From Capnocytophaga periodontitidis (GTDB lineage Bacteria > Bacteroidota > Bacteroidia > Flavobacteriales > Flavobacteriaceae): a stretch of DNA of 64,000 bases. The translations under genes were made by a program, and so were the position numbers. The notes under the pieces were generated by a model. The model was not told the origin of the DNA. It ran no database searches and was given only the letters and a program-made list of their open reading frames with translations. Below are positions 1-18,136 of the stretch, in pieces; the stretch's first letter is position 1, and the number at the start of each line of letters is the position of its first letter. Location: positions 124,001 through 188,000 of the forward strand of contig NZ_JAEFDB010000003.1 of assembly GCF_016126015.1 (NCBI RefSeq), read 5' to 3'.

Positions 1-411
1 ACAAACGCAACATATCCACCGTTTGGGCAGCAAATTGAGTGTCGCGCTCATACACAAAACGCTGCGACATATTTTCTACAGGATCTTTCGTTAGAAAAAG
101 TTCTTCGCTAAAAGTACTATAAATCTCTATTGCAAAATCCACTTTCCCCATCCATATAAGGGCATTACACAGTTTAGAAATGAGAATATCAGGAGTGTTA
201 AATTCCTCATCAAACACGTGTAAGGGTTTGGCGCGTAGGTTGCGATGTAAAGCAACTTCAGCCACGCGAATCGCTTCTTGTTCATTGTTGTTCAAGTAAG
301 CCAATACTACTTTGGCTATGGTATAACGCGTTTCAGGATAATGAAAGAAACTATCAGGATAATCTCGCCATACCGATTCGATGTATTTATCAGCTTCTGC
401 AGTATATTTTT
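1..411 (-). pseudogene. Out-of-frame 3' continuation of the poly-G-interrupted HTH gene
   Basis: Seen: with 19 or 22 G residues (instead of 21) in the coding-strand tract, the reading frame runs from the HTH gene through this segment to the window edge, at least 136 codons with no stop. The translated sequence looks like a real helical protein (for example YTAEADKYIESVWRDYP and NNNEQEAIRVAEVALHRN), with the spaced Ala/Leu pattern expected of TPR-like helices. Inferred: this is the C-terminal part of a phase-variable protein that is switched off in this sequence. The true 3' end lies outside the window. Confidence 0.75.
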
Positions 412-1044
412 CTACAAAACCCCCCCCCCCCCCCCCCCCCATTTTGTACTGCAAAATACACCATAAGCAAGAAAAGAATTTTGGCATACTCTCAAGTGTT
501 CCAAAGGTTGAGTGGCGAGATAGGTTTCGATGAGGTGAACATAACTCGCTTGTGCCATATAATCGTAGTACGGGAACCAAGGGTAAAGCGACTGAGTGAT
601 TTTTGGAGTGTTTTTATAGCGTTCCAAAAACGAATAGGCATAAGGTAAATCGTTTAAAATGATAGGAGCGTAAGCCTCGTGAGTGTCACGCAGTTTAACG
701 TCGAAAAAACTCGCGCCCGAGAAAGCAATAGTGTCGTAGAAAGAGTTGATAACCTCGCGCAGTTGTGTAGGGGTAGCAGGGGTTGTGTTGTTGCAAAAGC
801 TCTGCCAGTCAGCAAAACCAATGTAGTTACACAGCAAGTTTAAGCTTGCAGTGCTAAGTTGTTTCTCCTTGTCAATTTTTCCAAAGAAGCGGCGCAAGGT
901 TTGGGTAGATAGACGCGTTTTTTCCGATAATTCTTCAAAGTCAGCTATAGAAGTAACTGTTTTTCCAAAGGAGCGGTTTACTTCGTTTTGTAAGCGGTTA
1001 ATGTGTTGTTTATAAGCGTTATCAGTAGCTAAATCATTTGTCAT
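412..1044 (-). CDS. Poly-G-interrupted helix-turn-helix regulator-like protein (off phase)
   Basis: Encodes 210 residues from ATG at 1042-1044 (the upstream in-frame ATG at 1131 lies above the promoter and is unlikely). Residues about 20-60 hold a helix-turn-helix-like stretch (FEELSEKTRLSTQTLRRFFGK) followed by NLLCNYIGFADWQSF, a layout seen at the N-terminus of Bacteroidetes regulators. The C-terminus ends artificially as WGGGGGG-VL-stop, because the homopolymer at 420-440 shifts the frame into TAG. It diverges from the small-gene cluster that starts at 1222, and its own -33 box overlaps a TGTACA palindrome. Inferred role: local, probably autoregulated transcription factor. No specific family is claimed. 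Confidence 0.7.
   Translation of the reverse strand: MTNDLATDNAYKQHINRLQNEVNRSFGKTVTSIADFEELSEKTRLSTQTLRRFFGKIDKEKQLSTASLNLLCNYIGFADWQSFCNNTTPATPTQLREVINSFYDTIAFSGASFFDVKLRDTHEAYAPIILNDLPYAYSFLERYKNTPKITQSLYPWFPYYDYMAQASYVHLIETYLATQPLEHLRVCQNSFLAYGVFCSTKWGGGGGGVL
420..440. repeat. 21-base homopolymeric C tract (G on coding strand)
   Basis: Twenty-one consecutive C residues lie inside the minus-strand gene. Such tracts change length by slipped-strand mispairing. Here 21 and 20 give early stops, and 19 or 22 give an open frame. A length error in assembly is also possible, since homopolymers this long are hard to sequence. Confidence 0.95.
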
Positions 1045-1074
1045 TTTCCACGTCAAGTATTTATAATAGGGGTG

Positions 1075-1106
1075 CAAATATACACAAAAAACACCAAACT
1101 GTACAA
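1075..1106 (-). promoter_or_regulatory. Promoter of the phase-variable HTH gene
   Basis: On the minus strand a -7 box TATATTTG (1075-1082) has a TTG (1104-1106) 21 bases upstream. The -33 lies inside the palindrome at 1099-1116, so a protein bound there would block this promoter. Confidence 0.6.
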
Positions 1107-1145
1107 AATTGTACAGAAATTTTATACACAATTGTACAAAATTGG
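1099..1145. promoter_or_regulatory. Paired TGTACA palindromes, putative operators
   Basis: CTGTACA-AAAT-TGTACAG (1099-1116) is a perfect 7-base inverted repeat. A second palindrome TTGTACAA (1132-1139) lies in a similar context (TTGTACAAAATTG is shared). The first covers the -33 of the leftward promoter; the second ends 9 bases before the -33 of the rightward promoter. Inferred: binding sites for the adjacent HTH protein controlling both transcripts. Confidence 0.5.
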
Positions 1146-1148
1146 ACT

Positions 1149-1178
1149 TTTGTATTTTTTGGAGCGATTATACTTTTG
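1149..1178 (+). promoter_or_regulatory. Promoter of the small-gene cluster
   Basis: TTTG (1149-1152), 18-base spacer, TACTTTTG (1171-1178), 43 bases before the first ATG at 1222. It is divergent from the HTH gene promoter. Confidence 0.65.
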
Positions 1179-1221
1179 CCGCTGAAAAAAGATAACAACA
1201 GAAACCGAAAAATAATAAATA

Positions 1222-1476
1222 ATGTCAGTAGAATATTACAGAAAACAAATCATCGACCTCAGAGCGCGATTAGCCAAAGAGAAAGAAAACAAGAAGAAGG
1301 ACAATGCTTATTATGGCGATATGGCAAAAAAAGCTTCTTCTCCTAGTAGTAAAGCTTCTTATAAAAAGACTAAAGTAGATAAAGCCGCTTCTCACGACCG
1401 TGCTATCGAAAGTCTCAAAAAACAAATAGAGCGTTCTAAAGAAAGTCTTGCTCGCGAAAAGGCAAGAAAAAAATAA
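1222..1476 (+). CDS. Small lysine-rich helical protein, unknown
   Basis: 84 residues, with no signal peptide or membrane segment. The ends are predicted helix or coiled coil (residues 1-25 with YYRKQIIDLRARLAKEK; residues 58-84 with RAIESLKKQIERSKESLARE). They are joined by a Ser/Lys-rich middle (SSPSSKASYKKTK). The heptad-like spacing of Ile/Leu in both ends suggests self-association. It is the first gene after the cluster promoter, with 29 bases to the next gene. Not recognised; its basic nature, shared with the genes at 3108 and 3476, hints at nucleic-acid contact, but this is only an inference. Confidence 0.7.
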   Translation: MSVEYYRKQIIDLRARLAKEKENKKKDNAYYGDMAKKASSPSSKASYKKTKVDKAASHDRAIESLKKQIERSKESLAREKARKK

Positions 1477-1505
1477 ACAAGTAAACAATTTAAAATTTTT
1501 ATAAT

Positions 1506-1898
1506 ATGATTAAGCAATACAAAGAATTGGTAGCTACTGATTTGTATATCGTGGCTATCTACGACAACAAGTCTATCGACGTGTACAACCGCTACGAAAA
1601 CGCTAAAGGTGCTTTGCGTCAAATCGCTGATGAAAACAACTTCAAGTATGACGAATCTTGGAATACTCGTCAGTTTGGCAAAAAATTAATTGATGCCCTT
1701 GGAGGCGGAGCTCCTGCTATTGCCGATGAAACTTACTGTGTGTATACCGATGCCAAAGGTACCGTTATCTGTGGAAGCAAGTTTGAAGGCAGTACTAAAG
1801 AAGGTTTGCGTACCGTAGCTGCTAAGTACAAAATTAAGTACGACGAGGCTTGGAACACTCAACAGTTCGGTAAAAAAGTAATTGAAGCTTTGCGATAA
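1506..1898 (+). CDS. Duplicated-domain small protein, copy A
   Basis: 130 residues made of two copies of one unit of about 60 residues. Each unit has a short beta-hairpin (YIVAIYDNKSIDVY; YCVYTDAKGTVICG) followed by helices ending in the near-identical block KYDE-(S/A)WNT-(R/Q)QFGKK (about residues 47-60 and 113-126). The protein at 3691 has the same architecture and is its paralog in the same cluster. No signal peptide, so probably cytoplasmic. Family not recognised. Conserved Trp, Asn, Phe and Lys in both halves suggest a binding surface, not a metal or hydrolase site. Confidence 0.75.
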   Translation: MIKQYKELVATDLYIVAIYDNKSIDVYNRYENAKGALRQIADENNFKYDESWNTRQFGKKLIDALGGGAPAIADETYCVYTDAKGTVICGSKFEGSTKEGLRTVAAKYKIKYDEAWNTQQFGKKVIEALR

Positions 1899-1909
1899 GA
1901 GCTGATTTC

Positions 1910-1941
1910 TAAGAGAGTGTCTATTTTTAGGCACTCTCTTA
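1910..1941 (+). other. Intercistronic hairpin
   Basis: TAAGAGAGTG (1910-1919) pairs with CACTCTCTTA (1932-1941). The plus strand then has A residues, not T, so this is not a classic plus-strand terminator. It may set transcript stability between the genes at 1506 and 1987. Confidence 0.5.
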
Positions 1942-1986
1942 AAAAAAACTGAAATAAACATACTAACACTAAATAAAGAAATAAAA

Positions 1987-2490
1987 ATGGCAAAAAAAGC
2001 TCTTGTAACAGGAAGAACACAGAACAGAACAGCCCTTGGTATTATTGCTGCTTATTTAGAAATGTACCCTAGTACAACTCTAAGTGAGTTAAAACAAATA
2101 TTCGCAAAAAGTAGTGTATGTCCCGATGCAGGTATTGGCGAACTATTCTACACTACTAAAGACCTTGAGGCTGAGAAAAAAGCAGGAAATGAATGGTTTG
2201 AAAAAGACCAAGCTTGCTTTACTCAAGATGGTGAATGGTTAAAAGTAAAAGGCAATAAAATCGCTTTCTGCAAAATGTGGACAGCTCCCAGCCTTGCTAA
2301 ACTACAACAAAAAGCCGAACAATATGGCATCACAGCTCAAGTAGGCGACCTTCCTAAAACCGCCCCTAACTACAAAGTAGGGTATGCAATCACTTATGAA
2401 GGTGGTAAAAAAGGAATTCCTTTTTGGGTGTGGATTGTATTGTTAGTACTCTTAGCAGGAATCGCCTATTTTTTATTAGCCAATAAATAA
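1987..2490 (+). CDS. C-terminally membrane-anchored protein, unknown
   Basis: 167 residues. The soluble part (1-140) starts with a helical segment (NRTALGIIAAYLEMYPSTTL, about residues 13-32) resembling a small wHTH-like fold, and contains four Cys. The C-terminus has a run GIPFWVWIVLLVLLAGIAYF (about 143-162), a single membrane segment with only a few residues after it. That is the layout of a tail-anchored protein with a cytoplasmic head. The head is not a family I recognise. An OmpA-like relic follows directly, so this locus may once have held a cell-envelope protein. Confidence 0.7.
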   Translation: MAKKALVTGRTQNRTALGIIAAYLEMYPSTTLSELKQIFAKSSVCPDAGIGELFYTTKDLEAEKKAGNEWFEKDQACFTQDGEWLKVKGNKIAFCKMWTAPSLAKLQQKAEQYGITAQVGDLPKTAPNYKVGYAITYEGGKKGIPFWVWIVLLVLLAGIAYFLLANK

Positions 2491-2491
2491 A

Positions 2492-2644
2492 AAAACTGTT
2501 GCTATTCAAACCATTCCTCCTACTGAAGAAGTACAAAAAGTAGAGTCGCCTCAGCTATGAAGGTTTTGGAAGTAGCAAACAAAAAACACTAATACCCCCA
2601 ACTCCGATGAAAATAGACGTGTGGAGTTTATCGTACTTAAATAA
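2492..2644 (+). pseudogene. Relic of an OmpA-family C-terminus
   Basis: Directly after the previous stop, one frame reads KTVAIQTIPPTEEVQ and then meets stops. Near the end another frame reads NTPNSDENRRVEFIVLK-stop (2585-2644), which matches the usual end of Bacteroidetes OmpA/MotB-type peptidoglycan-binding domains (NRRVEF followed by hydrophobics). The catalytic-size domain itself is missing. It looks like the scar of a deleted OmpA-like gene, and it explains most of the 188-base gap before 2679. Confidence 0.55.
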
Positions 2645-2678
2645 AACATTTTTTTAACACTTAAAAAATTCTAATATT

Positions 2679-3083
2679 ATGGGAATTAAAACAAAAACTA
2701 TTGCCCCTTTTATCGCTGCTGCTGCAACTGCACAAGGAACTTACGATGAAATTGCACAAGAATGTGTAGCCGATTTGGCTGAAGAACTCGAACTCAACGA
2801 CCTACAAAAAGAAGTAGAAGCAGCTTTCAAAAAAATAGAAAAACTCAGCGATGACGATTTTGATGCTTATCTCGAGGAAGCTGCTAAAGCTGTGAAAGCT
2901 GGTGAAAAAGAAGCTACATTACTTATTAGCTTGCAAGTATTAGCATCCGATGGTGTGATTACTGCCGACGAGATGGAAAACTATTTTGCTTTTGCTGAAC
3001 TACTTGGCATAGACGATGAAAAAGCAAGCAAATTGTTTGACGATTTTGTAGAAGAAGCTGATGATTTAGAAATCGAAGCCTAA
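2679..3083 (+). CDS. Acidic helical protein, TerB-like
   Basis: 134 residues, strongly acidic (many Glu/Asp, for example LSDDDFDAYLEEA and FDDFVEEADDLEIEA) and almost entirely helical. The segment LQVLASDGVITADEMENYF...LGID (about residues 85-115) resembles the repeating DG-x-x-x-x-E motif of TerB/DjlA-type helical domains, which fits a small metal- or partner-binding role. The similarity is short and I would not assign it firmly. The next two genes encode very basic proteins, so charge pairing between these neighbours is plausible. No signal peptide. Confidence 0.65.
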   Translation: MGIKTKTIAPFIAAAATAQGTYDEIAQECVADLAEELELNDLQKEVEAAFKKIEKLSDDDFDAYLEEAAKAVKAGEKEATLLISLQVLASDGVITADEMENYFAFAELLGIDDEKASKLFDDFVEEADDLEIEA

Positions 3084-3107
3084 TGTATAACCTTAATTTT
3101 TTTAACT

Positions 3108-3404
3108 ATGGCACTTAAAAAAACAGCAACTGGAAAAGTAGATAAAAGAACTACTGAATACAAAGAAATGGTAGAAAGAGCAAAAAAAGCTCGTGAAGCT
3201 GCTAAAAAAGAAAAAGCAGCTAAAAAATCCGACAAGAAAACTACAACTTCAAGTGGGGTAAAAAGAAAAGCCGATGGTAAAGTAGACCTTCGTACCAAAG
3301 AAGGAAAAGCTATAGCCGAAAGAATGGAAAAAGCCCGTAAAGCCAAAGAAAAAAATAAAAAGAAAGGCGGCGTATTGTCACGACTCATTAAAAAATTAGT
3401 ATAA
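3108..3404 (+). CDS. Very basic Lys/Ala-rich protein with internal duplication
   Basis: 98 residues, roughly one third Lys. Two related blocks occur: GKVDKRTTEYKEMVERAKKA (about 9-28) and GKVDLRTKEGKAIAERMEKA (about 56-75), joined by a Ser/Thr/Lys linker. The C-terminus GGVLSRLIKKLV is a short amphipathic helix. Low complexity resembles histone-H1-like or ribosome-associated proteins, but the repeated GKVD-x-RT motif is distinctive and argues for a defined partner. It lies 24 bases after the acidic gene. Function unknown. Confidence 0.65.
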   Translation: MALKKTATGKVDKRTTEYKEMVERAKKAREAAKKEKAAKKSDKKTTTSSGVKRKADGKVDLRTKEGKAIAERMEKARKAKEKNKKKGGVLSRLIKKLV

Positions 3405-3423
3405 TAGCAATACACACTTTTTT

Positions 3424-3456
3424 AACTTTGCCTGAGTTCCAAACTTAGGCAAAGTT
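3424..3456 (+). other. Intercistronic hairpin
   Basis: AACTTTGCCT (3424-3433) pairs with AGGCAAAGTT (3447-3456), with further inner pairs (AGTT/AACT). There is no T tract after it. The outer stem matches that of the inverted repeat at 18153-18201. Confidence 0.55.
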
Positions 3457-3475
3457 AATATTAAATAATCAACTT

Positions 3476-3679
3476 ATGGGACTATTTAGCAGTATTTTAA
3501 AAGGAACAGGATTCTCTTTTTCGTGGAAACGTGCTGTAGGACTTACAGCACTCCGCAGTAAAACCTCTCGCAGAATAGGAGTGCCTACTTCTCGCCAAGG
3601 GGTAGAACGCAAAATAGGTGCAACTTTATTGGGAGTCCTATTTGGTACAAGCAAAAAGAAAGGAAGAAAGAAAAAATAA
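3476..3679 (+). CDS. Small basic protein, unknown
   Basis: 67 residues, rich in Arg and Lys, with a glycine-containing hydrophobic patch (KIGATLLGVLFGTSKK, about 46-61) and a Lys/Arg tail (KKKGRKKK). The start MGLFSSILKGTG is amphipathic. It is too short and low in complexity to place in a family. The position, 11 bases before the copy-B duplicated-domain gene, supports translation as part of the same operon. Confidence 0.6.
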   Translation: MGLFSSILKGTGFSFSWKRAVGLTALRSKTSRRIGVPTSRQGVERKIGATLLGVLFGTSKKKGRKKK

Positions 3680-3690
3680 ATATTTGTACA

Positions 3691-4089
3691 ATGAAAAAAT
3701 ATAAAGAAATAGCAGCTAAAGGAAAGTATGTAGTCGTTTTGTATGACAATAATGCTGTAGAAGTATATGTAAAACAAAAAGTGACTATTGCAATTTTGCA
3801 TAAAATAGCTGGCGAAAACGGGCTTAAATTTCATCAAGATACAGCCGTTGAAAATGGCATAGAATGGTTTGCTAAAAAGATACTTGACACATTGGGAGAC
3901 CCCAATGCTATCGTGGGAGGAGAAGATTGTTTGTATATAAACAAAAATAATACTCTTATTTGTGGAAATCGCTACGCGGGAACAGTCAAGGAAGCTTTAA
4001 GAAAAATCGCTGAGGAATTTGAAATAGACTATCAAGATACTTGGAATACTCAGCAATTTGGTCGTAAAATTATAAATGAGTTAAAATAA
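3691..4089 (+). CDS. Duplicated-domain small protein, copy B
   Basis: 132 residues, a paralog of the protein at 1506. N-terminal unit: YKEIAAKGKYVVVLYDNNAV; C-terminal unit: CLYINKNNTLICGNRYAGTV followed by helices and DTWNTQQFGRKIINEL. The second unit keeps the WNTQQFG block, but the first has lost it (VENGIEWFAKKIL instead), so the two copies have diverged in their first half. Probably cytoplasmic. Having two versions in one cluster suggests heteromers or two specificities, which is an inference. Confidence 0.75.
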   Translation: MKKYKEIAAKGKYVVVLYDNNAVEVYVKQKVTIAILHKIAGENGLKFHQDTAVENGIEWFAKKILDTLGDPNAIVGGEDCLYINKNNTLICGNRYAGTVKEALRKIAEEFEIDYQDTWNTQQFGRKIINELK

Positions 4090-4105
4090 TAGATACTATT
4101 AGTTT

Positions 4106-4519
4106 ATGAAAAAAATAGTACTAATCTCTTGTGTTTCAAAAAAAGCTCCTCAGCCTATGCAAGCAGAGGAGCTATACCAAAGCCCTTTATTTGTAAAAAG
4201 TTTAGCTTATGCTAAAAAGCTAAGACCCGATGCTATTTACATATTATCGGCACTACATCATCTGCTCCCTCTTGATAAAGTAACCGCCCCATATAACCTT
4301 ACTCTCAACACTATGAGTAAAAAGGAAAGAACAGAATGGGGTAAGAAAGTAGTGGAGCAACTTAAACAAGTGGCAAATTTAGAGGAAGATACTTTTGTGG
4401 TTTTAGCAGGAGAAAACTACCTCGCACCTATCCAATCTCACCTAAAACATCTCGAACTCCCCTTAAAAGGAATGAAAATAGGTGAACGGCTACAGTTTCT
4501 AACGAATAAAACAGCTTAA
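4106..4519 (+). CDS. DUF6884-type protein
   Basis: 137 residues. The N-terminus KKIVLISCVSKKAPQPMQAE, then ELYQSPLFVKSLAYAKKLRP, and the YNLTLNTMSKKERTEWGKKV block in the middle match the family annotated as DUF6884 in bacteria and archaea. The Cys/Ser/Lys motif at residues 9-13 is the family hallmark. The biochemical role is not settled; distant links to nucleotide- or TGT-related folds have been suggested in general, and I do not claim an activity. The stop is one base from the start of the GIY-YIG-like gene, so the two are almost certainly co-translated. Confidence 0.7.
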   Translation: MKKIVLISCVSKKAPQPMQAEELYQSPLFVKSLAYAKKLRPDAIYILSALHHLLPLDKVTAPYNLTLNTMSKKERTEWGKKVVEQLKQVANLEEDTFVVLAGENYLAPIQSHLKHLELPLKGMKIGERLQFLTNKTA

Positions 4520-4520
4520 A

Positions 4521-5180
4521 ATGAACTCATTAGCAGTACAATTACATCAGTTATTTAACGCACAAAAGCGTTTTACTTTTCCTTTTGAAGCAAATAAGAA
4601 CGAAATTCCTACTAATGGTATTTATATTATCTTTGAGAAAGGTGAAAAATTTAATGATTGTGATAGAATCATCAGAGTAGGTACCCATACAGGAGATAAC
4701 CAACTCTATTCTCGCTTAAAACAACATTTTGTAAAAGAGAATAAGAATAGAAGTATTTTTAGAAAAAATGTAGGGCGTAGTCTGTTGCGTAAAGATGACC
4801 CTCATCATCCTTATGCTGAAAAATGGGAATACGATACTACCTCAAGGGAAGGTAAACAAAAGTATGCACACTTGCTGGATGTAAATTTTGAAAAGGCTTT
4901 AGAAAAGCGAATTAGTGAATATATACAGCAAAACCTCTCTTTTGTAGTTTTTGAAGTAAAAACTAAAGACGACCGACTATTCTGGGAGAGCAGAATCATT
5001 TCTACCCTTTCTAATGCTGCAAAAGCAGGAGAAATAAAACCTTCTGAAAATTGGTTAGGTAGTTATTCTCCTAATGAAAAGATTAGAGAAAGCGGACTTT
5101 GGTTAGTGAATGAATTGTATAAACAAAGTCTCAACAACGAAGAATTTGAAAAGCTAAAAAACTTAGTAGAAGGTAAATAA
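4521..5180 (+). CDS. GIY-YIG nuclease-like protein
   Basis: 219 residues. The N-terminal half carries the GIY-YIG core: NGIYIIFEKGE (about 32-42), RIIRVGTHTG (about 49-58), then SRLKQHF and RSIFRKNVGRSLL. A later LFWESRII (about residue 155) can supply the acidic metal ligand. The whole protein is one domain with a helical C-terminus. It directly follows the DUF6884 gene, and this pair recurs as neighbours in other bacteria as far as I recall. Likely a DNA-acting enzyme, possibly in defence or repair. Target and partner are unknown. Confidence 0.7.
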   Translation: MNSLAVQLHQLFNAQKRFTFPFEANKNEIPTNGIYIIFEKGEKFNDCDRIIRVGTHTGDNQLYSRLKQHFVKENKNRSIFRKNVGRSLLRKDDPHHPYAEKWEYDTTSREGKQKYAHLLDVNFEKALEKRISEYIQQNLSFVVFEVKTKDDRLFWESRIISTLSNAAKAGEIKPSENWLGSYSPNEKIRESGLWLVNELYKQSLNNEEFEKLKNLVEGK

Positions 5181-5292
5181 TTTGATCACTTTCAAGCACT
5201 CCCCTGTTATGCGAGTCTTATAAAGGCTAAACCATAATTAGGTATCAAATATCAGGTGTCAGACATCAGGTGTTTAGTAATAATCAAACAAA

Positions 5293-5330
5293 AACCACCG
5301 TTGTGCATTTACCCGCTCAGCGGTGGTTCT
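5293..5330 (+). terminator. Probable terminator of the small-gene cluster
   Basis: AACCACCG (5293-5300) pairs with CGGTGGTT (5321-5328), then CTTTATT. The loop contains a second small palindrome CCGCTcAGCGG. It lies 113 bases after the GIY-YIG-like gene. Confidence 0.6.
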
Positions 5331-5359
5331 TTATTGCCTTAACTTTCCTAATGAGCAAA

Positions 5360-5390
5360 TTGGCGAATTGTCAAATTATTATTACCTTTG
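5360..5390 (+). promoter_or_regulatory. Promoter of the 5437 gene
   Basis: TTG (5360-5362), 20-base spacer, TACCTTTG (5383-5390), 46 bases before the ATG. This shows that the 5437 gene is a separate transcription unit from the cluster. Confidence 0.65.
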
Positions 5391-5436
5391 TGTCTCAATC
5401 TTTTAGAAAAAATGTGAGCCTACAAACTTTATAAAA

Positions 5437-5943
5437 ATGAAACACCACCTTACCACCTATAGCCATATTGTATTAAGAAAGAGGTATAAAGATATTACTT
5501 TTAGTGTAATGTACGAGACTATCAATGGCGGACTTGTAGAGAAATTTAATGAAGGTACTCAAAGTAAAACCGAAAAGTACAAGAATATTGAGGCTTTGAA
5601 AATCTTAGCTGATAATGGGAGGAAGTATCGCCTATTACCTGTAATTCAAGATAGACAGAAAAATCCTGATGCATTTAATTTGATAAACTTAAGATATGTA
5701 GATATAAAAGTAGCAGAAAGTACCAATGGGAAGAATGTTACACAAAGTGCACTAAAAGAGGCTAATAGACAGAATGTAAGTGAGCTAATTATACATTTCC
5801 CCGAAGAATTAGAGTCTAATCGTGATGTGTACGATGCTTTAAAAGCTTCATTTAAGCAAGGAAGAGCAAGTAATATTGAGTGTATAACTATTATTACCCA
5901 TAAGAAAAAAGTAATATCCTTTAAAACAGATAGGCTAAAATAA
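5437..5943 (+). CDS. Putative BECR-fold/CdiA-C-like RNase domain protein
   Basis: 168 residues, no signal peptide. The C-terminal two thirds (KNPDAFNLINLRYVDIKVAE, then QSALKEANRQNVSELIIHFP, VYDALKASFKQGRASNIECI, ITIITHKKKVISF) resemble the tRNase-type C-terminal domains of contact-dependent toxins and the PBECR domains of phage and plasmids: a Lys-containing central strand (VDIKVAES), a helix with an Asn/Gln-rich face, and a final strand pair. It stands alone with its own promoter and no adjacent immunity gene on the same strand. This is a fold-level guess; it may be an inactive or regulatory relative. Confidence 0.5.
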   Translation: MKHHLTTYSHIVLRKRYKDITFSVMYETINGGLVEKFNEGTQSKTEKYKNIEALKILADNGRKYRLLPVIQDRQKNPDAFNLINLRYVDIKVAESTNGKNVTQSALKEANRQNVSELIIHFPEELESNRDVYDALKASFKQGRASNIECITIITHKKKVISFKTDRLK

Positions 5944-5946
5944 CTA

Positions 5947-5979
5947 GGAGGCAAATTGAATTACCATCAATTTGCCTCC
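5947..5979. terminator. Bidirectional hairpin between 5437 gene and the minus short transcript
   Basis: GGAGGCAAATTGA (5947-5959) pairs perfectly with TCAATTTGCCTCC (5967-5979), loop of 7. The plus strand continues with C and seven G, the minus strand with TAGTTATTTT. It could end either convergent transcript. Confidence 0.6.
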
Positions 5980-6026
5980 CGGGGGGGTGTGTGCGTATAG
6001 AGACCCGAAGTCTCGTCACTCACCAT
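5967..6026 (-). CDS. 19-codon short reading frame or small RNA
   Basis: Starts ATG at 6024-6026 and ends TGA at 5967-5969: MVSDETSGLYTHTPPREAN. The coding strand has seven C residues in the middle and a hairpin GAGAC-TTCGG-GTCTC near its 5' end. A strong minus promoter lies 29 bases upstream. It may be a leader peptide, a tiny protein, or simply a structured RNA of about 100 bases. Confidence 0.35.
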   Translation of the reverse strand: MVSDETSGLYTHTPPREAN

Positions 6027-6054
6027 CAAAACGATTTTAATCTGTTTTGCGTTG

Positions 6055-6085
6055 CAAAGATATTACTTTTTTAATACATACGCAA
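6055..6085 (-). promoter_or_regulatory. Strong minus-strand promoter before the short transcript
   Basis: Minus strand: TTG (6083-6085), 20-base spacer, TATCTTTG (6055-6062). It drives leftward transcription where no normal gene is present. Confidence 0.55.
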
Positions 6086-6194
6086 ATTTTTTGACTGTTT
6101 TTTATTTGTAATATTTCTATCAACTATACTTAATGATTGATAATTAAACCCTTACACCCTATCCTCTAACCTCTTCATTGTTATCTGTCCATTG

Positions 6195-7247
6195 TTAATT
6201 ATTAATTGTTAATTGTAAAGAATACTGCCTCCTAATCTTCTCCTCTGGTCGTAAGCAAAAGGTGTATAAACAAAGTAGAAAACCCCATTCTAAGGGCTTC
6301 ATCAGTATATAAGTGAGGTTTGAAGCCCAGCGACTTTTGATTTTTTTAGAGAGGTCGTAACCATAGCGGTCATAGTTCTTGCGTATAAAGCGGTGTAGGG
6401 TAGGGGAGAGGTCGACGATAAGTTCTTCAAAGGCGTTAGCAATTTGCAACTGTCGGTTTACGATAATGCGCTGCTTGCCCCGTATCCCCCAGCGCAAAGG
6501 TTTTACTAATTGCGGACTTCCGCAGGCAGCTACAGTGCAAAGATAATGCCCTTGGTGGGGTAAATGCGGCGGGTGGTCGTGTTGTGAGAACCCCCAAGTA
6601 GTAGTCTCTGTCAGTGCTTTGCTCACAGCATCGTAATCATCTCCAAAGAGCATCAGGATTAAGGTAATGAGTACAAACACAGGCAATATAGCTATTACCG
6701 AGGAGCAAAACAGCGCGCTTTTGGTAGAGAGTTTTTTGTTCAGCTCGTTGAGCCATTGGTATTTAGAAGGTCTAAAAGATAGGTTTTTAGGCAAATTATA
6801 GAGCGTGCGAATGATGATGCTTAAACCTACTAACAGACTGAAAGTAGGGAAGCAAGCTAAGATTTCAGCACCTTCTTTGGCTCCCGTCAGTTGTAGGATA
6901 AGAGCTCCATTGAAAAACAACCCTATATAGAGCACACACAATCCCAATGCTAAAATTAGTGGGGGTAAAGCTGATTTGCGAAACCAAAGTAGTAGCAGGG
7001 AAATATGGTATAACACAAAAAATATCATATATATCAGTCGGTGTTTGGAAGCAATAAACTCATAACTTTCAAGTCCAGCAGGGTCAATCGCTTCGTAATA
7101 AGGGTGTTCCTCTCCTGAAAATAAAAGGAATAGTAAAAATGTAACAAAATAAAATTCTGCTATGATAATCTGCCATATAGGTACAAATTTGCGCAATAGT
7201 AGTATAAAGCATATCGCAAATACAACTAAAAATAGTAATTCTATCAT
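6195..7247 (-). CDS. Polytopic membrane protein, possibly DUF6688-like
   Basis: 350 residues. Several membrane segments occupy the first two thirds (about residues 2-20, 27-44, 72-90, 95-118, 130-148, 178-202). The C-terminal region is soluble, with QLQIANAFEEL and LHRFIRKNYDRYGYDLSKKI (about 283-315), and ends with one more hydrophobic stretch. The LHRFIR-x-NYDRYGY motif is conserved in a Bacteroidetes membrane family that I believe is DUF6688. No enzymatic motif was found. It is flanked by TTAATTG repeats and has no operon partner on the same strand except the SpoU gene upstream. Confidence 0.65.
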   Translation of the reverse strand: MIELLFLVVFAICFILLLRKFVPIWQIIIAEFYFVTFLLFLLFSGEEHPYYEAIDPAGLESYEFIASKHRLIYMIFFVLYHISLLLLWFRKSALPPLILALGLCVLYIGLFFNGALILQLTGAKEGAEILACFPTFSLLVGLSIIIRTLYNLPKNLSFRPSKYQWLNELNKKLSTKSALFCSSVIAILPVFVLITLILMLFGDDYDAVSKALTETTTWGFSQHDHPPHLPHQGHYLCTVAACGSPQLVKPLRWGIRGKQRIIVNRQLQIANAFEELIVDLSPTLHRFIRKNYDRYGYDLSKKIKSRWASNLTYILMKPLEWGFLLCLYTFCLRPEEKIRRQYSLQLTINN

Positions 7248-10640: not shown

Positions 10641-11345
10641 ATGCAACCGCTTACGTGTATTATAGTAGATGATGAGCCTATGGCGCTCTGCCTTCTAGAG
10701 AGTTATGTGAAGAAAACTCCTTCCTTGCAACTTGTAGGGAAGTTTAGCAATGCCATAGAAGTATTGCAATTTCTGCACAACCACCCAGCTCCCGAGCTTA
10801 TCTATATGGATATACAGATGCCAGAACTCAACGGTTTGCAACTCTCCAAAAAGCTCCCCACGGCTTCTAAAATCGTCTTTACTACAGCTTTCGATCAGTA
10901 TGCCTTAGAAGGTTATAAAGTAAATGCGATAGGCTATTTGCTGAAACCTTTTGATTATTCCGAGTTTTTGGAAACGGTAGAAAAAGCCCTACTTCTCACC
11001 GAAACTACTGCCCCTCAACTCACCGAAGTACCTGATTATATGTTCGTAAAAACCGATTACAAACAAGTGAAGGTGCTCTACAGTGATATTCTTTATATAG
11101 AAAGTCTAAAAGACTATGTGAGAATATACCTCATCGGTGATACACCTCCTATCACCACCCTGATGAGTTTAAAGAAATTAGAAGAAGAGTTACCTCCAGA
11201 ACAATTTATGCGCGTACATCGCTCGTTTATTGTAGCCTTAGATAAAGTGGAAGTGGTAGAGCGCAACCAAGTAGTATTTGGCAAACAGCGCATCACCATT
11301 GCCGAACACTGCAAAGAGGCATTCTTTGAGAAGATTAAGTTATAA
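10641..11345 (+). CDS. LytTR-family response regulator
   Basis: 234 residues. Receiver domain 1-120 with acidic pair DDE (10-12), phospho-acceptor Asp57 (IYMDIQMPELNG), Thr in FTTAFD and Lys in LLKPFD. LytTR DNA-binding domain about 130-234 (YIESLKDYVRIYL, EQFMRVHRSFIVAL). Such proteins in Bacteroidetes are usually next to a membrane histidine kinase of the YehU/LytS type. None is found here, so the partner must be elsewhere. The position just after tamL suggests co-transcription and a possible role in envelope homeostasis (inference). Confidence 0.9.
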   Translation: MQPLTCIIVDDEPMALCLLESYVKKTPSLQLVGKFSNAIEVLQFLHNHPAPELIYMDIQMPELNGLQLSKKLPTASKIVFTTAFDQYALEGYKVNAIGYLLKPFDYSEFLETVEKALLLTETTAPQLTEVPDYMFVKTDYKQVKVLYSDILYIESLKDYVRIYLIGDTPPITTLMSLKKLEEELPPEQFMRVHRSFIVALDKVEVVERNQVVFGKQRITIAEHCKEAFFEKIKL

Positions 11346-15623: not shown

Positions 15624-16091
15624 TTAAAATTTAATGATTACTTTAGTTTCTTTTATGTCGGTGAGCGCAAAAAATTGCTCTTTTTTTACAGTGATTTTTC
15701 CTTTGCCTACGGGTTTAGGTTCGCGAGTTTCGGTTTCAAGAACGGCTTTACCTTCTTGCAATCCTTTGAGTACCCCTTCGTGAGTTTTACCGTCAAGGGT
15801 TGTGATTTGTACGGTTCTTCCAGCGTTTTTGGTGTATTGGCGCTCCATTACAAAGGGTTCGGTAGCACCAAAAGAGGTTACTTCTAAAGCGAAATCTACA
15901 GTTTCGCGGTCTAAAGCACCTTCTACAGCACGACTGAGTTCAATGCAATCGTCTATACAAACGCCTTTATCGCCGTCGATAGTGATGCGGATGGTATTGT
16001 CAGCACCCACAGTTAAATCAGTGAGGAAGAGTTCAGGATGATTGCTTAAAGCCTTATCTACTAACTCTTTAACTTGGTCTTTAAAATTCAT
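15624..16091 (-). CDS. rimP: Ribosome maturation factor RimP
   Basis: 155 residues. N-terminal alpha/beta domain with VGADNTIRITIDGDKGVCI and DDCIELSRAVEGALD, and a C-terminal SH3-like barrel (AGRTVQITTLDGKTHEGVL...KGKITVKKEQF). It assists 30S maturation. First gene of the operon, preceded by a strong promoter and a terminator-like leader hairpin. Confidence 0.95.
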   Translation of the reverse strand: MNFKDQVKELVDKALSNHPELFLTDLTVGADNTIRITIDGDKGVCIDDCIELSRAVEGALDRETVDFALEVTSFGATEPFVMERQYTKNAGRTVQITTLDGKTHEGVLKGLQEGKAVLETETREPKPVGKGKITVKKEQFFALTDIKETKVIIKF

Positions 16092-16098
16092 TTGTTAT

Positions 16099-16126
16099 AA
16101 AAAGAGGGGACTAAAATGTCCCCTCT
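16099..16126 (-). terminator. Terminator-like hairpin in the rimP leader
   Basis: On the minus strand AGAGGGGAC (16118-16126) pairs with GTCCCCTCT (16103-16111), followed by TTTTT (16099-16103), 8 bases before the rimP ATG. It lies inside the transcribed leader, so it is a candidate attenuator of rimP-nusA-infB. Confidence 0.7.
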
Positions 16127-16143
16127 AATGTTGTTTTTCGGGG

Positions 16144-16173
16144 CAAAGATACAACGTTTTTTTGAAATAACAA
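16144..16173 (-). promoter_or_regulatory. Promoter of rimP-nusA-infB
   Basis: TTG (16171-16173), 19-base spacer, TATCTTTG (16144-16151) on the minus strand. The leader between it and rimP is about 45 bases and is mostly the hairpin at 16099-16126. Confidence 0.75.
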
Positions 16174-16314
16174 GAAAAAAGTAAAAAAAGTTTTGGAAAT
16201 TAGATAAATAGGTGGTAGTTTTGGGGCTCTATAAAGCAATATAAATAATGAAGAAACTTCTAATTTCTAAAAAGTTTGAACGCGATAGTATCCTTGCATA
16301 GACAATTTATGTAG

Positions 16315-16334
16315 GGGCTAATGGCAATTAGCCC
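16315..16334. repeat. REP-like palindrome
   Basis: GGGCTAAT-GGCA-ATTAGCCC, flanked by GTAG and TCATAA, before the gene at 16359. Such short palindromes are common intergenic elements. It may also form a 5' leader hairpin. Confidence 0.5.
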
Positions 16335-16358
16335 TCATAAAAAATAATTGAAAAAACA

Positions 16359-16805
16359 ATGAAAACATTTCTATTAACAATATTGTGCTGTGTGAGTACT
16401 CTCACTTGGGCGCAAGAAAATAGCTTTTATCAGCAAGATTCTATTATGTTGCTCAGTCAGCTTAAAGATAAAAGTTTTAAGATAGATAAAAAAGTAACAA
16501 TTGATTGCATTCCTTCTATAGATATGCACCACTCTACTACCTATAGCAGGACAAAAGTAAAGAAGGCGTTTAGTGCTATTTTTGATGAGTTTTTCGAGAG
16601 AAAACTCAAAGAAAAAGATTTTAAGTTGTTCTATTATCCAGCTATGGATTATAATACTACACCAGAAACAGAGCATAAACTTTATGGTCTTGTTTTAAAG
16701 GAATATGATGGTAAGGTTGATGAGCTTTTGAGGATTTATTGGTTTGAAAAAAAGGATAATAACTTTTATTTTATATGGATAGAATGTGCTATTAAGAATG
16801 AATAA
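16359..16805 (+). CDS. Small secreted protein, unknown
   Basis: 148 residues with an SPI signal peptide (KTFLLTILCCVSTLTWAQ, cleavage after Ala-Gln near 19). The mature part is mixed alpha/beta, with DFKLFYYPAMDYNTTPETEHKLYG and LRIYWFEKKDNNFYFIW, and has no recognised motif. It is followed 5 bases later by a small membrane protein, so the two are likely co-expressed. Confidence 0.6.
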   Translation: MKTFLLTILCCVSTLTWAQENSFYQQDSIMLLSQLKDKSFKIDKKVTIDCIPSIDMHHSTTYSRTKVKKAFSAIFDEFFERKLKEKDFKLFYYPAMDYNTTPETEHKLYGLVLKEYDGKVDELLRIYWFEKKDNNFYFIWIECAIKNE

Positions 16806-16810
16806 TAGAA

Positions 16811-17140
16811 ATGAGAAAAGTGACTTTATTGTCGGGTATTTGGTGTTTGATTTGTGTGATAATCAACCCTTTTGTATTTTGGGAGATGTTGTTTAATAAT
16901 CTTTTGCATACAAGTGATAGTTTTAGGTATAATAATGCGGTTGAAATAATAGGGGGGACTATATTTTTTACTGCTTTTATAGTGTCACCTATATTTCTCA
17001 TATATCAAACGGTGTTGAGATTAATGCAAAAGTCTCATTATAAAGTCTTTAAAATTGTAAAAATTACTTATTTCTTTTTGTTGTTGAATGTAGTGTTTTA
17101 TAGCTTTATATATTATATTTTGAGTAACGCAACAAAATAA
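16811..17140 (+). CDS. Small three-span membrane protein, unknown
   Basis: 109 residues with hydrophobic segments about 7-27, 45-66 and 86-104. No conserved polar motif seen. It lies 5 bases after the secreted protein at 16359. Not recognised. Confidence 0.5.
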   Translation: MRKVTLLSGIWCLICVIINPFVFWEMLFNNLLHTSDSFRYNNAVEIIGGTIFFTAFIVSPIFLIYQTVLRLMQKSHYKVFKIVKITYFFLLLNVVFYSFIYYILSNATK

Positions 17141-17218
17141 AGTTTAGGAAATTAACATAATAAAAGGCTGATTTCATAATAATTTATTACTAAAATGAAA
17201 AGAAAAGAAACTTTTTTC

Positions 17219-17249
17219 TTGCAAATAAAAAATAAAAGTCGTACATTTG
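17219..17249 (+). promoter_or_regulatory. Promoter of the universal stress protein gene
   Basis: TTG (17219-17221), 20-base spacer, TACATTTG (17242-17249), 54 bases before the ATG. Confidence 0.7.
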
Positions 17250-17302
17250 CCTCATCAAACAAAAGTTTGTGGAAATGAAATAATTTAAAAAAATAGAGTC
17301 TT

Positions 17303-18136
17303 ATGAAAAACATCTTAGTAACTACCGATTTCTCTGAGAAGTCTATCGCTTCTCTTCACGTAGCAATAGAATTGGCTAAAAAACACAAAGCTAAAATCTA
17401 TTTGCTTCACGCTATAGAATTGCCACTGCGCTTAATGACCGAGAGTCAAGTATCTGTGCCCGAGGCTATGTACTTTCTCAACCTCACCAAGCAACGTTTC
17501 ACCGATCTCCGCAAAACTCTCAATACCGATGTAGAAATCCTTGATTTGGTAGAAACATCTCCTCTACCCGATGCCGTAGAAGATGTTGTGAAAAAACACC
17601 ATATCGACCTCGTGTTAATGGGTTCTAACGGTGCTTCAGGAGCTAAAGAACTCTTTATAGGTTCCAATGCCGAGAAAGTAATTCGCTCTGCTTCTGTACC
17701 CGTGTTAGTAATTAAAAATCCACACGAAAAACTCAAAATTAAACACGTTATGTTCGGTTGCGACTTCTCTAAACGATTTTTAAAACCTTTTGAAAAAGCG
17801 TTGAAATTAGCAAAACTCTTTGGTGCTAAAGTAGATTTAGTGTATGTGAATACCCCTTATCAATTCCTTACCACTCACGAAATTAACCACCGTATGCAAG
17901 AATTTCTCAAAGAAGCTGAACACGTACGTCAGCATTACGAAACTCACGTATACAACGATATTCGTGTAGAAACAGGTATTCTCAACTACGTGAAGGATAA
18001 TAAAATAGACCTTATTTGTATGTTCCCTAACGGACGCAAAGGTATCGCTCATTTCTTCAACGGCAGTATTAGTAGCGACCTTGTAAACCACTCTAATACT
18101 CCAGTGCTTACCATTAAGTTAGAAAAAGAAAAATAG
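17303..18136 (+). CDS. Two-domain universal stress protein
   Basis: 277 residues in two UspA domains. Domain 1 (about 1-145) has the ATP-binding signature GSNGASGAKELFIGSNAEK and ends in PVLVIKNPH. Domain 2 (about 148-277) starts with MFGCDFSKRFLKP and ends in SISSDLVNHSNTPVLTIKL but has a weaker nucleotide motif (FPNGRKGIAHFF). This tandem form is common in Bacteroidetes and is linked to stress survival; no ligand can be read from sequence. Own promoter upstream and an inverted-repeat terminator downstream make it monocistronic. Confidence 0.85.
   Translation: MKNILVTTDFSEKSIASLHVAIELAKKHKAKIYLLHAIELPLRLMTESQVSVPEAMYFLNLTKQRFTDLRKTLNTDVEILDLVETSPLPDAVEDVVKKHHIDLVLMGSNGASGAKELFIGSNAEKVIRSASVPVLVIKNPHEKLKIKHVMFGCDFSKRFLKPFEKALKLAKLFGAKVDLVYVNTPYQFLTTHEINHRMQEFLKEAEHVRQHYETHVYNDIRVETGILNYVKDNKIDLICMFPNGRKGIAHFFNGSISSDLVNHSNTPVLTIKLEKEK

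Follow-up and report, generated by a model that had tools for sequence, protein, structure and literature searches.

What kind of device is encoded by nine small genes near the left end of a 64,000-nt stretch of Capnocytophaga periodontitidis DNA (contig NZ_JAEFDB010000003.1, positions 124,001 to 188,000; hereafter the window)? A first-pass annotation had listed them, here g1 to g9, as plus-strand genes with paired charges and duplicated domains, consistent with one defence or DNA-handling device that matched no known system. The present study finds that the cluster is real, with all nine plus-strand open reading frames (ORFs) present and separated by gaps of 1–188 nt, and that most of its genes could not be assigned to any described system. 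Specifically, scans of ten window ORFs against Pfam, PHROGs, NCBIfam, and PADLOC gave no match at E < 1e-3 for g1–g7; the claim of novelty fails for g8 and g9, which match a catalogued candidate, PDC-M57. We give an even chance to the reading of the block as a pared-down and exchangeable cassette belonging to a modular, as yet undescribed conflict system of the Bacteroidia, with g2 and g7 as putative adaptors for nuclease effectors and a likely role in defence. This reading is carried by gene content, conservation, gene fusions, and different cargo at one chromosomal site. At its centre is a recurrence seen at the sequence level: the regulator-like gene, g1, the g2 domain, and g3–g6 recur with KAP NTPases, nuclease-like proteins, ion channels, and a family termed UBL. 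The unit extends further left than the nine genes, to the regulator-like gene at the start of the window. The features of the locus are the following (pI, isoelectric point).

1–1044, minus strand: regulator-like gene (start at 1044; the gene extends beyond the left edge of the window), with a conserved N-terminal domain and a long C-terminal part
420–440: run of 21 C (21 G in the gene), a phase-variation-like tract inside the regulator-like gene
1097–1114 and 1130–1147: two 18-nt direct repeats, 89% alike and 33 apart, a candidate operator
1149–1178, plus strand: match to a Bacteroidota-type promoter, TTTG-N18-TACTTTTG
1222–1476, plus strand: g1, basic, helix-rich protein of 84 aa (pI 10.1)
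1506–1898, plus strand: g2, two copies of a “WNT-x-QFG” domain of about 60 aa (pI 8.4)
1987–2490, plus strand: g3, conserved N-terminal domain and one transmembrane (TM)-like helix, a truncated OmpA-domain protein (pI 9.1)
2491–2641, plus strand: remnant of the C-terminal end of the OmpA domain, in two frames
2679–3083, plus strand: g4, acidic TerB-like protein (pI 4.1)
3108–3404, plus strand: g5, basic protein with a repeated “GKVDxRTxE”-like motif (pI 10.5)
3476–3679, plus strand: g6, small, very basic protein (pI 12.0)
3691–4089, plus strand: g7, paralogue of g2, proposed adaptor of the M57 pair (pI 7.7)
4106–4519, plus strand: g8, DUF6884 protein, PADLOC PDC-M57A (pI 9.5)
4521–5180, plus strand: g9, GIY-YIG-like protein, PADLOC PDC-M57B (pI 9.1)
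5313–5326, plus strand: terminator-like hairpin after g9, whose sequence is also in the sister species

Are these genes kept together elsewhere? A three-row alignment of g2 led to nine loci, one in C. gingivalis and eight on metagenome contigs (Bacteroidia, Bacteroidales, or Prevotella), in which the N-terminal domain of g3 was found seven times (for L012, solely as part of a KAP protein), g4 and g5 six times each, g1 five times, and g6 three times. Because L014/L017 and L015/L016 are near-duplicates, these amount to roughly seven independent cases, two of which (L011 and L019) hold none of g1 and g3–g6. Two further loci came from a g1 profile, which matches 3 of 395 genomes of the class, the window genome (G000) included, and more came from a profile of the UBL-like domain, which matches 59 of the 395; wider stretches were opened in eight of these 59. 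The resulting map holds 19 related loci; it omits L082, and the short UBL loci L045–L074 were profiled only. In L082 (G598), a UBL-type gene (L082:7111–7476) has no other parts of the set nearby, and many of the weaker UBL matches among the 59 genomes may form a separate branch.

Across the 19 related loci the set recurs in varying subsets. As detected by profile mapping, g1 is present in seven, the g3 N-terminal domain in nine, g4 and g5 in eight each, and g6 in six (L014, L017, L018, L078, L079, and L083); a KAP NTPase occurs in nine, an ion channel in seven (one doubtful), and a C15 peptidase in three. The UBL-like domain was found in 16, a high count that is unsurprising since many of the loci were picked by its profile, and the regulator-like gene in 12, ten of which went into building its own profile. 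All seven parts of the set (the regulator-like gene, g1, the g2 domain, the g3 N-terminal domain, g4, g5, and g6) are found in the window, within 1–4089; the profiles, except that for the regulator, include window rows, and g1–g6 were also matched independently by blastp. Thus relatives of g1–g6 recur jointly in distant Bacteroidia, and a neighbourhood comparison of the kind proposed with the annotation finds the genes conserved together. The suggestion of acidic and basic partners is likewise supported: of the nine loci with both g4 and g5 detected, among them the window, every one has the two genes immediately adjacent (gaps of −11 to 27 nt). Moreover, for g1, g2, the g3 N-terminal domain, g4, g5, g6, and g8, the proportion of nonsynonymous differences from relatives (pN, 0.23–0.48) is below the near-saturated proportion of synonymous differences (pS, 0.65–0.89), so they are genuine genes under selection.

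More complete relatives also carry a KAP NTPase, a g3 protein anchored by an OmpA domain, the second duplicated-domain (UBL) family, and nucleases, ion channels, or a C15 peptidase, so that the nuclease-like and membrane parts the annotation had named do recur. No KAP NTPase gene lies within window positions 1–6200, and only a different KAP protein is encoded elsewhere in G000. Within the genus the set is very patchy (g4 in 1 and g2 in 2 of 20 genomes, G000 included), and a same-genus genome, G304, carries a fused g2 relative. An unusual pairing occurs in two loci (L083:4986–7132 and L018:13840–16144), where a C15 (pyroglutamyl-peptidase) gene comes immediately after an ion-channel gene in the vicinity of UBL and KAP genes.

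What, then, do the individual families suggest? The g1 protein shares 61–70% identity with relatives in four Bacteroidales loci. As had been noticed at first, g2 and g7 are paralogues (38–39% identical), each built of two copies of one domain of about 60 residues. In the predicted structure of g2 (pLDDT 88.5) each copy consists of three strands followed by two helices, and the model has no Foldseek match in the PDB at E ≤ 0.001. Among relatives, a PD-(D/E)XK-like nuclease is either joined to the g2 domain in one protein or encoded next to it, and the domain also turns up on a KAP NTPase; seven of the nine g2-found loci have a PD-(D/E)XK-like gene fused to the domain, beside it, or in the same gene row. 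A 134-aa protein elsewhere (L041:9894–10298, G707:C2) has a single partial g2-like repeat (4e-08) and neighbours that look like housekeeping genes, so the domain is perhaps not confined to these loci.

The third gene had been called a tail-anchored protein and was taken to provide a membrane anchor. However, its full-length relatives (305–325 aa) combine the N-terminal domain and the TM-like helix with an OmpA domain, which in L013 scores 71 bits against a Pfam cut-off of 27.2. The window ORF ends just past the helix, with most of the OmpA domain gone, and downstream of it tblastn finds two pieces of the domain in different frames (2544–2600 and 2576–2638, E 2.4e-07 each), a remnant that scores 70 against at most 40 in 500 shuffles. 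The tail-anchored appearance of g3 is thus a product of truncation. The fourth protein is indeed acidic; its likeness to TerB is less secure, for g4 itself (E 0.013, 16.2 bits) falls below the cut-off of 24.4 bits for Pfam TerB (PF05099), which its relatives in L013 and L083 barely pass (24.6 and 24.5 bits).

The right-hand end of the block is of a different kind. The g8 protein is a DUF6884 protein, as first annotated (Pfam, 1.3e-45), and matches PDC-M57A (2.7e-63, profile positions 1–135 of 138); g9, 1 nt downstream, matches PDC-M57B (7.6e-103, positions 1–209 of 211). The match of g9 to Pfam GIY-YIG (E 0.014) is below cut-off. The two adjacent genes thus match both PDC-M57 models over nearly their full length, and in the sister species they are fused; the two catalogued proteins, however, do not include g1–g7. 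PDC-M57 is unnamed in any paper of the literature searched, and PDCs in general are described as mostly unvalidated in PMC12988326. Matches to M57B occur in 5 of 299 genomes of the family of the host genus, including G000, and two of them are weak; g8 and g9 are absent from all 19 related loci.

The sister species, G314, provides a direct comparison at the same site. Its PurB is 99% identical, and its DNA matches that of the window at about 95% up to position 1190, at 95% over 5280–5384, and at 91% from 5922 on. Within the block, the only blastn match (matches below 60 nt were not listed) is a 165-nt piece of g9, at 70%. In this slot G314 carries one fused DUF6884/GIY-YIG-like (M57) gene and a 184-aa lipoprotein-like gene in place of g1–g9, while it keeps the regulator-like gene and the flanks found in the window. 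The g8 and g9 proteins are only 57% and 41% identical to the fused gene product, so the window pair is no recent copy of the sister gene. Of the 19 other genomes in the genus, 6 were compared at this site; G314 has the locus, and the other five share purB only, save for a 656-nt match (71%) in L090 to window positions 10656–11305.

By sequence comparison, then, the window joins a module set to an M57 pair. That g7 serves this pair is suggested by the tight packing of g6, g7, g8, and g9 (gaps of 11, 16, and 1 nt) together with the association of the g2 domain and nuclease-like genes; it is the weakest step of the model that we propose. In this model, an infection signal would activate a KAP-type switch, or sensor, where one is present. 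The duplicated domains of the g2 and UBL types and the N-terminal domain of g3 would act as like-to-like adaptors, connecting the KAP NTPase with exchangeable effectors, which would cleave DNA or permeabilize membranes, and in full versions the OmpA-anchored protein would fix the assembly at the cell wall or envelope. The g7 protein of the window would link the M57 pair, DUF6884 plus GIY-YIG-like, to this scheme, and expression of all of g1–g9 as a unit would be controlled by the divergently transcribed regulator through binding to the repeats upstream of g1. The likely target is phages or other invading DNA, a role that association makes plausible. We hold more tentatively, at somewhat below even chance, the joint claim that these loci represent a class of wall-anchored, KAP-NTPase-centred immune devices with duplicated adaptors and swappable effectors (nucleases, ion channels, peptidases), and that the window has captured PDC-M57 behind a phase-variable regulator. 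If true, the orphan families (WNT-x-QFG, UBL-like, g1, g5, g6, the g3 N-terminal domain, and the regulator family) would be joined in one system with a testable role, and the uncharacterised PDC-M57 pair would gain a setting; the two sister species show different cargo behind one regulator gene at one chromosomal site.

How does this organization compare with described systems? Kaur et al. 2020 (PMC7159879, here in its available part) describe NTPase-centred conflict systems with effector-associated domains, in which small noncatalytic domains are common to the core protein and to separate effectors and like-to-like contact is proposed; some iSTAND versions bear TM plus OmpA domains. Among relatives of the window, both a KAP NTPase and a nuclease-like fusion protein carry the g2 domain, but the core and the domain families differ from those described there: the cores in that text are vWA-MoxR or GTPase/GAP1, the relatives here carry a KAP NTPase instead, and a search of the available text for “KAP” as a whole word finds nothing. 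No Pfam match to a vWA-MoxR or GTPase/GAP1 core was found at E ≤ 1 among the ten window proteins, and the 19 related loci were scanned in part. The KAP NTPase of L083 matches the PADLOC models PifA, QatA, and PDC-S20; unlike those systems, the window block has no KAP gene, and the related loci have other partner genes. ZorB of the Zorya system is a peptidoglycan-binding, MotB-like protein, and the OmpA part of the full-length g3 of L013 matches ZorB models (best 4.8e-07). Shango includes a TerB protein, a trait shared with the TerB-like g4. However, models of Zorya (MotA-like ZorA plus ZorB) and of Shango have no match among the ten window proteins.

The one intact device that the annotation had envisaged is not what the window holds: g3 is a truncated remnant, the regulator-like gene is damaged as well, and the M57 module is separable from g1–g7, because the sister carries its fused gene alone, directly behind the shared promoter region. 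Relatives of g9 are found apart from the set on eight plasmids (seven from halophilic archaea, one from Deinococcus) and in L087, where no g8 relative was detected; L086 is cut by the contig end. These points favour the alternative that two unrelated neighbours have met here, a standalone PDC-M57 pair and a decaying g1–g7 remnant in which g7 has no M57 role. We regard this as unlikely, though it is the strongest rival: the tight packing from g6 to g9, the frequent company of the g2 domain and PD-(D/E)XK-like genes, and the distance of g8 and g9 from the sister gene argue against it. A less probable alternative is an envelope-stress or cell-surface module, in which OmpA-anchored g3, TerB-like g4, and the basic partners sense wall or membrane damage rather than phage, with ion channels and peptidases as responders. 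In its favour are the OmpA domain above cut-off in L013, the ion channels of the relatives, and the absence of the parts tried from viral contigs and plasmids (among the matches listed in a plasmid search with an OmpA-bearing query, only the OmpA part, query 191–302, aligned); the patchy presence, the cargo swap in the sister, and the repeated nuclease-like pairing nevertheless fit conflict systems better. That the block is cargo of an undetected mobile element, with genes serving plasmid- or ICE-like maintenance, is highly improbable: G+C is lower (0.34–0.36 over 2001–6000 vs. 0.40–0.42 immediately right, although 16001–18000 is lower still, at 0.32) and similarity to the sister ends abruptly near 1190 and 5280, but the ten scanned ORFs have no integrase or relaxase match (repeats at the block ends were not searched for) and the parts tried have no viral-contig or plasmid match.

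If the block is a conflict cassette, is it switched on? A profile of the regulator N-terminal region (regN), built from ten other loci with the window gene and the sister copy left out, matches the window gene at 2.2e-18 among 2367 ORFs. A second regulator profile, sister row included, finds one copy each in G000 and G314, 1–5 in six other genomes, and none in G023 or G304. Five members of the family have no Pfam match above cut-off; the regulator role therefore rests on the N-terminal pattern, which appears helix-turn-helix-like and may bind DNA, and on the divergent placement of the gene. In the window gene, the reading frame changes across the 21-C tract, and the two halves are separate ORFs in L020, whereas the sister copy (L088:11278–12561) is an open ORF of 427 aa without a C tract. 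The broken frame suggests phase variation, but may be a sequencing or assembly error. With no NTPase at the locus, a truncated anchor, and a regulator-like gene whose frame is broken, the unit in this strain may be partly inactive or decaying, reduced to its nuclease arm, or only switchable. In L013, L017, L018, and L019, a gene that we read as serine/threonine-kinase-like adjoins the regulator-like gene.

The 18-nt repeats sit between the divergent regulator-like gene and g1, and the sister locus L088 has them too. The promoter match at 1149 is the only plus-strand match in 1–6200, and only 1 of 2000 shuffles of 1046–1221 holds one; in the sister, the second box is conserved and the first has a single base difference. 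With this match before g1 and the hairpin after g9, g1–g9 could be one transcription unit, although terminator-like matches are no rarer within 1000–5500 than in shuffles (5 found vs. 3.3 expected).

To the right of the block lies a 168-aa ORF (5437–5940) that matches CdiA_C weakly (E 0.053); the sister, which retains just its last bases, seems to have lost it. Beyond it, the minus strand encodes a DUF6688 protein (6195–7247) that the sister also has, where it borders the variable slot on the right.

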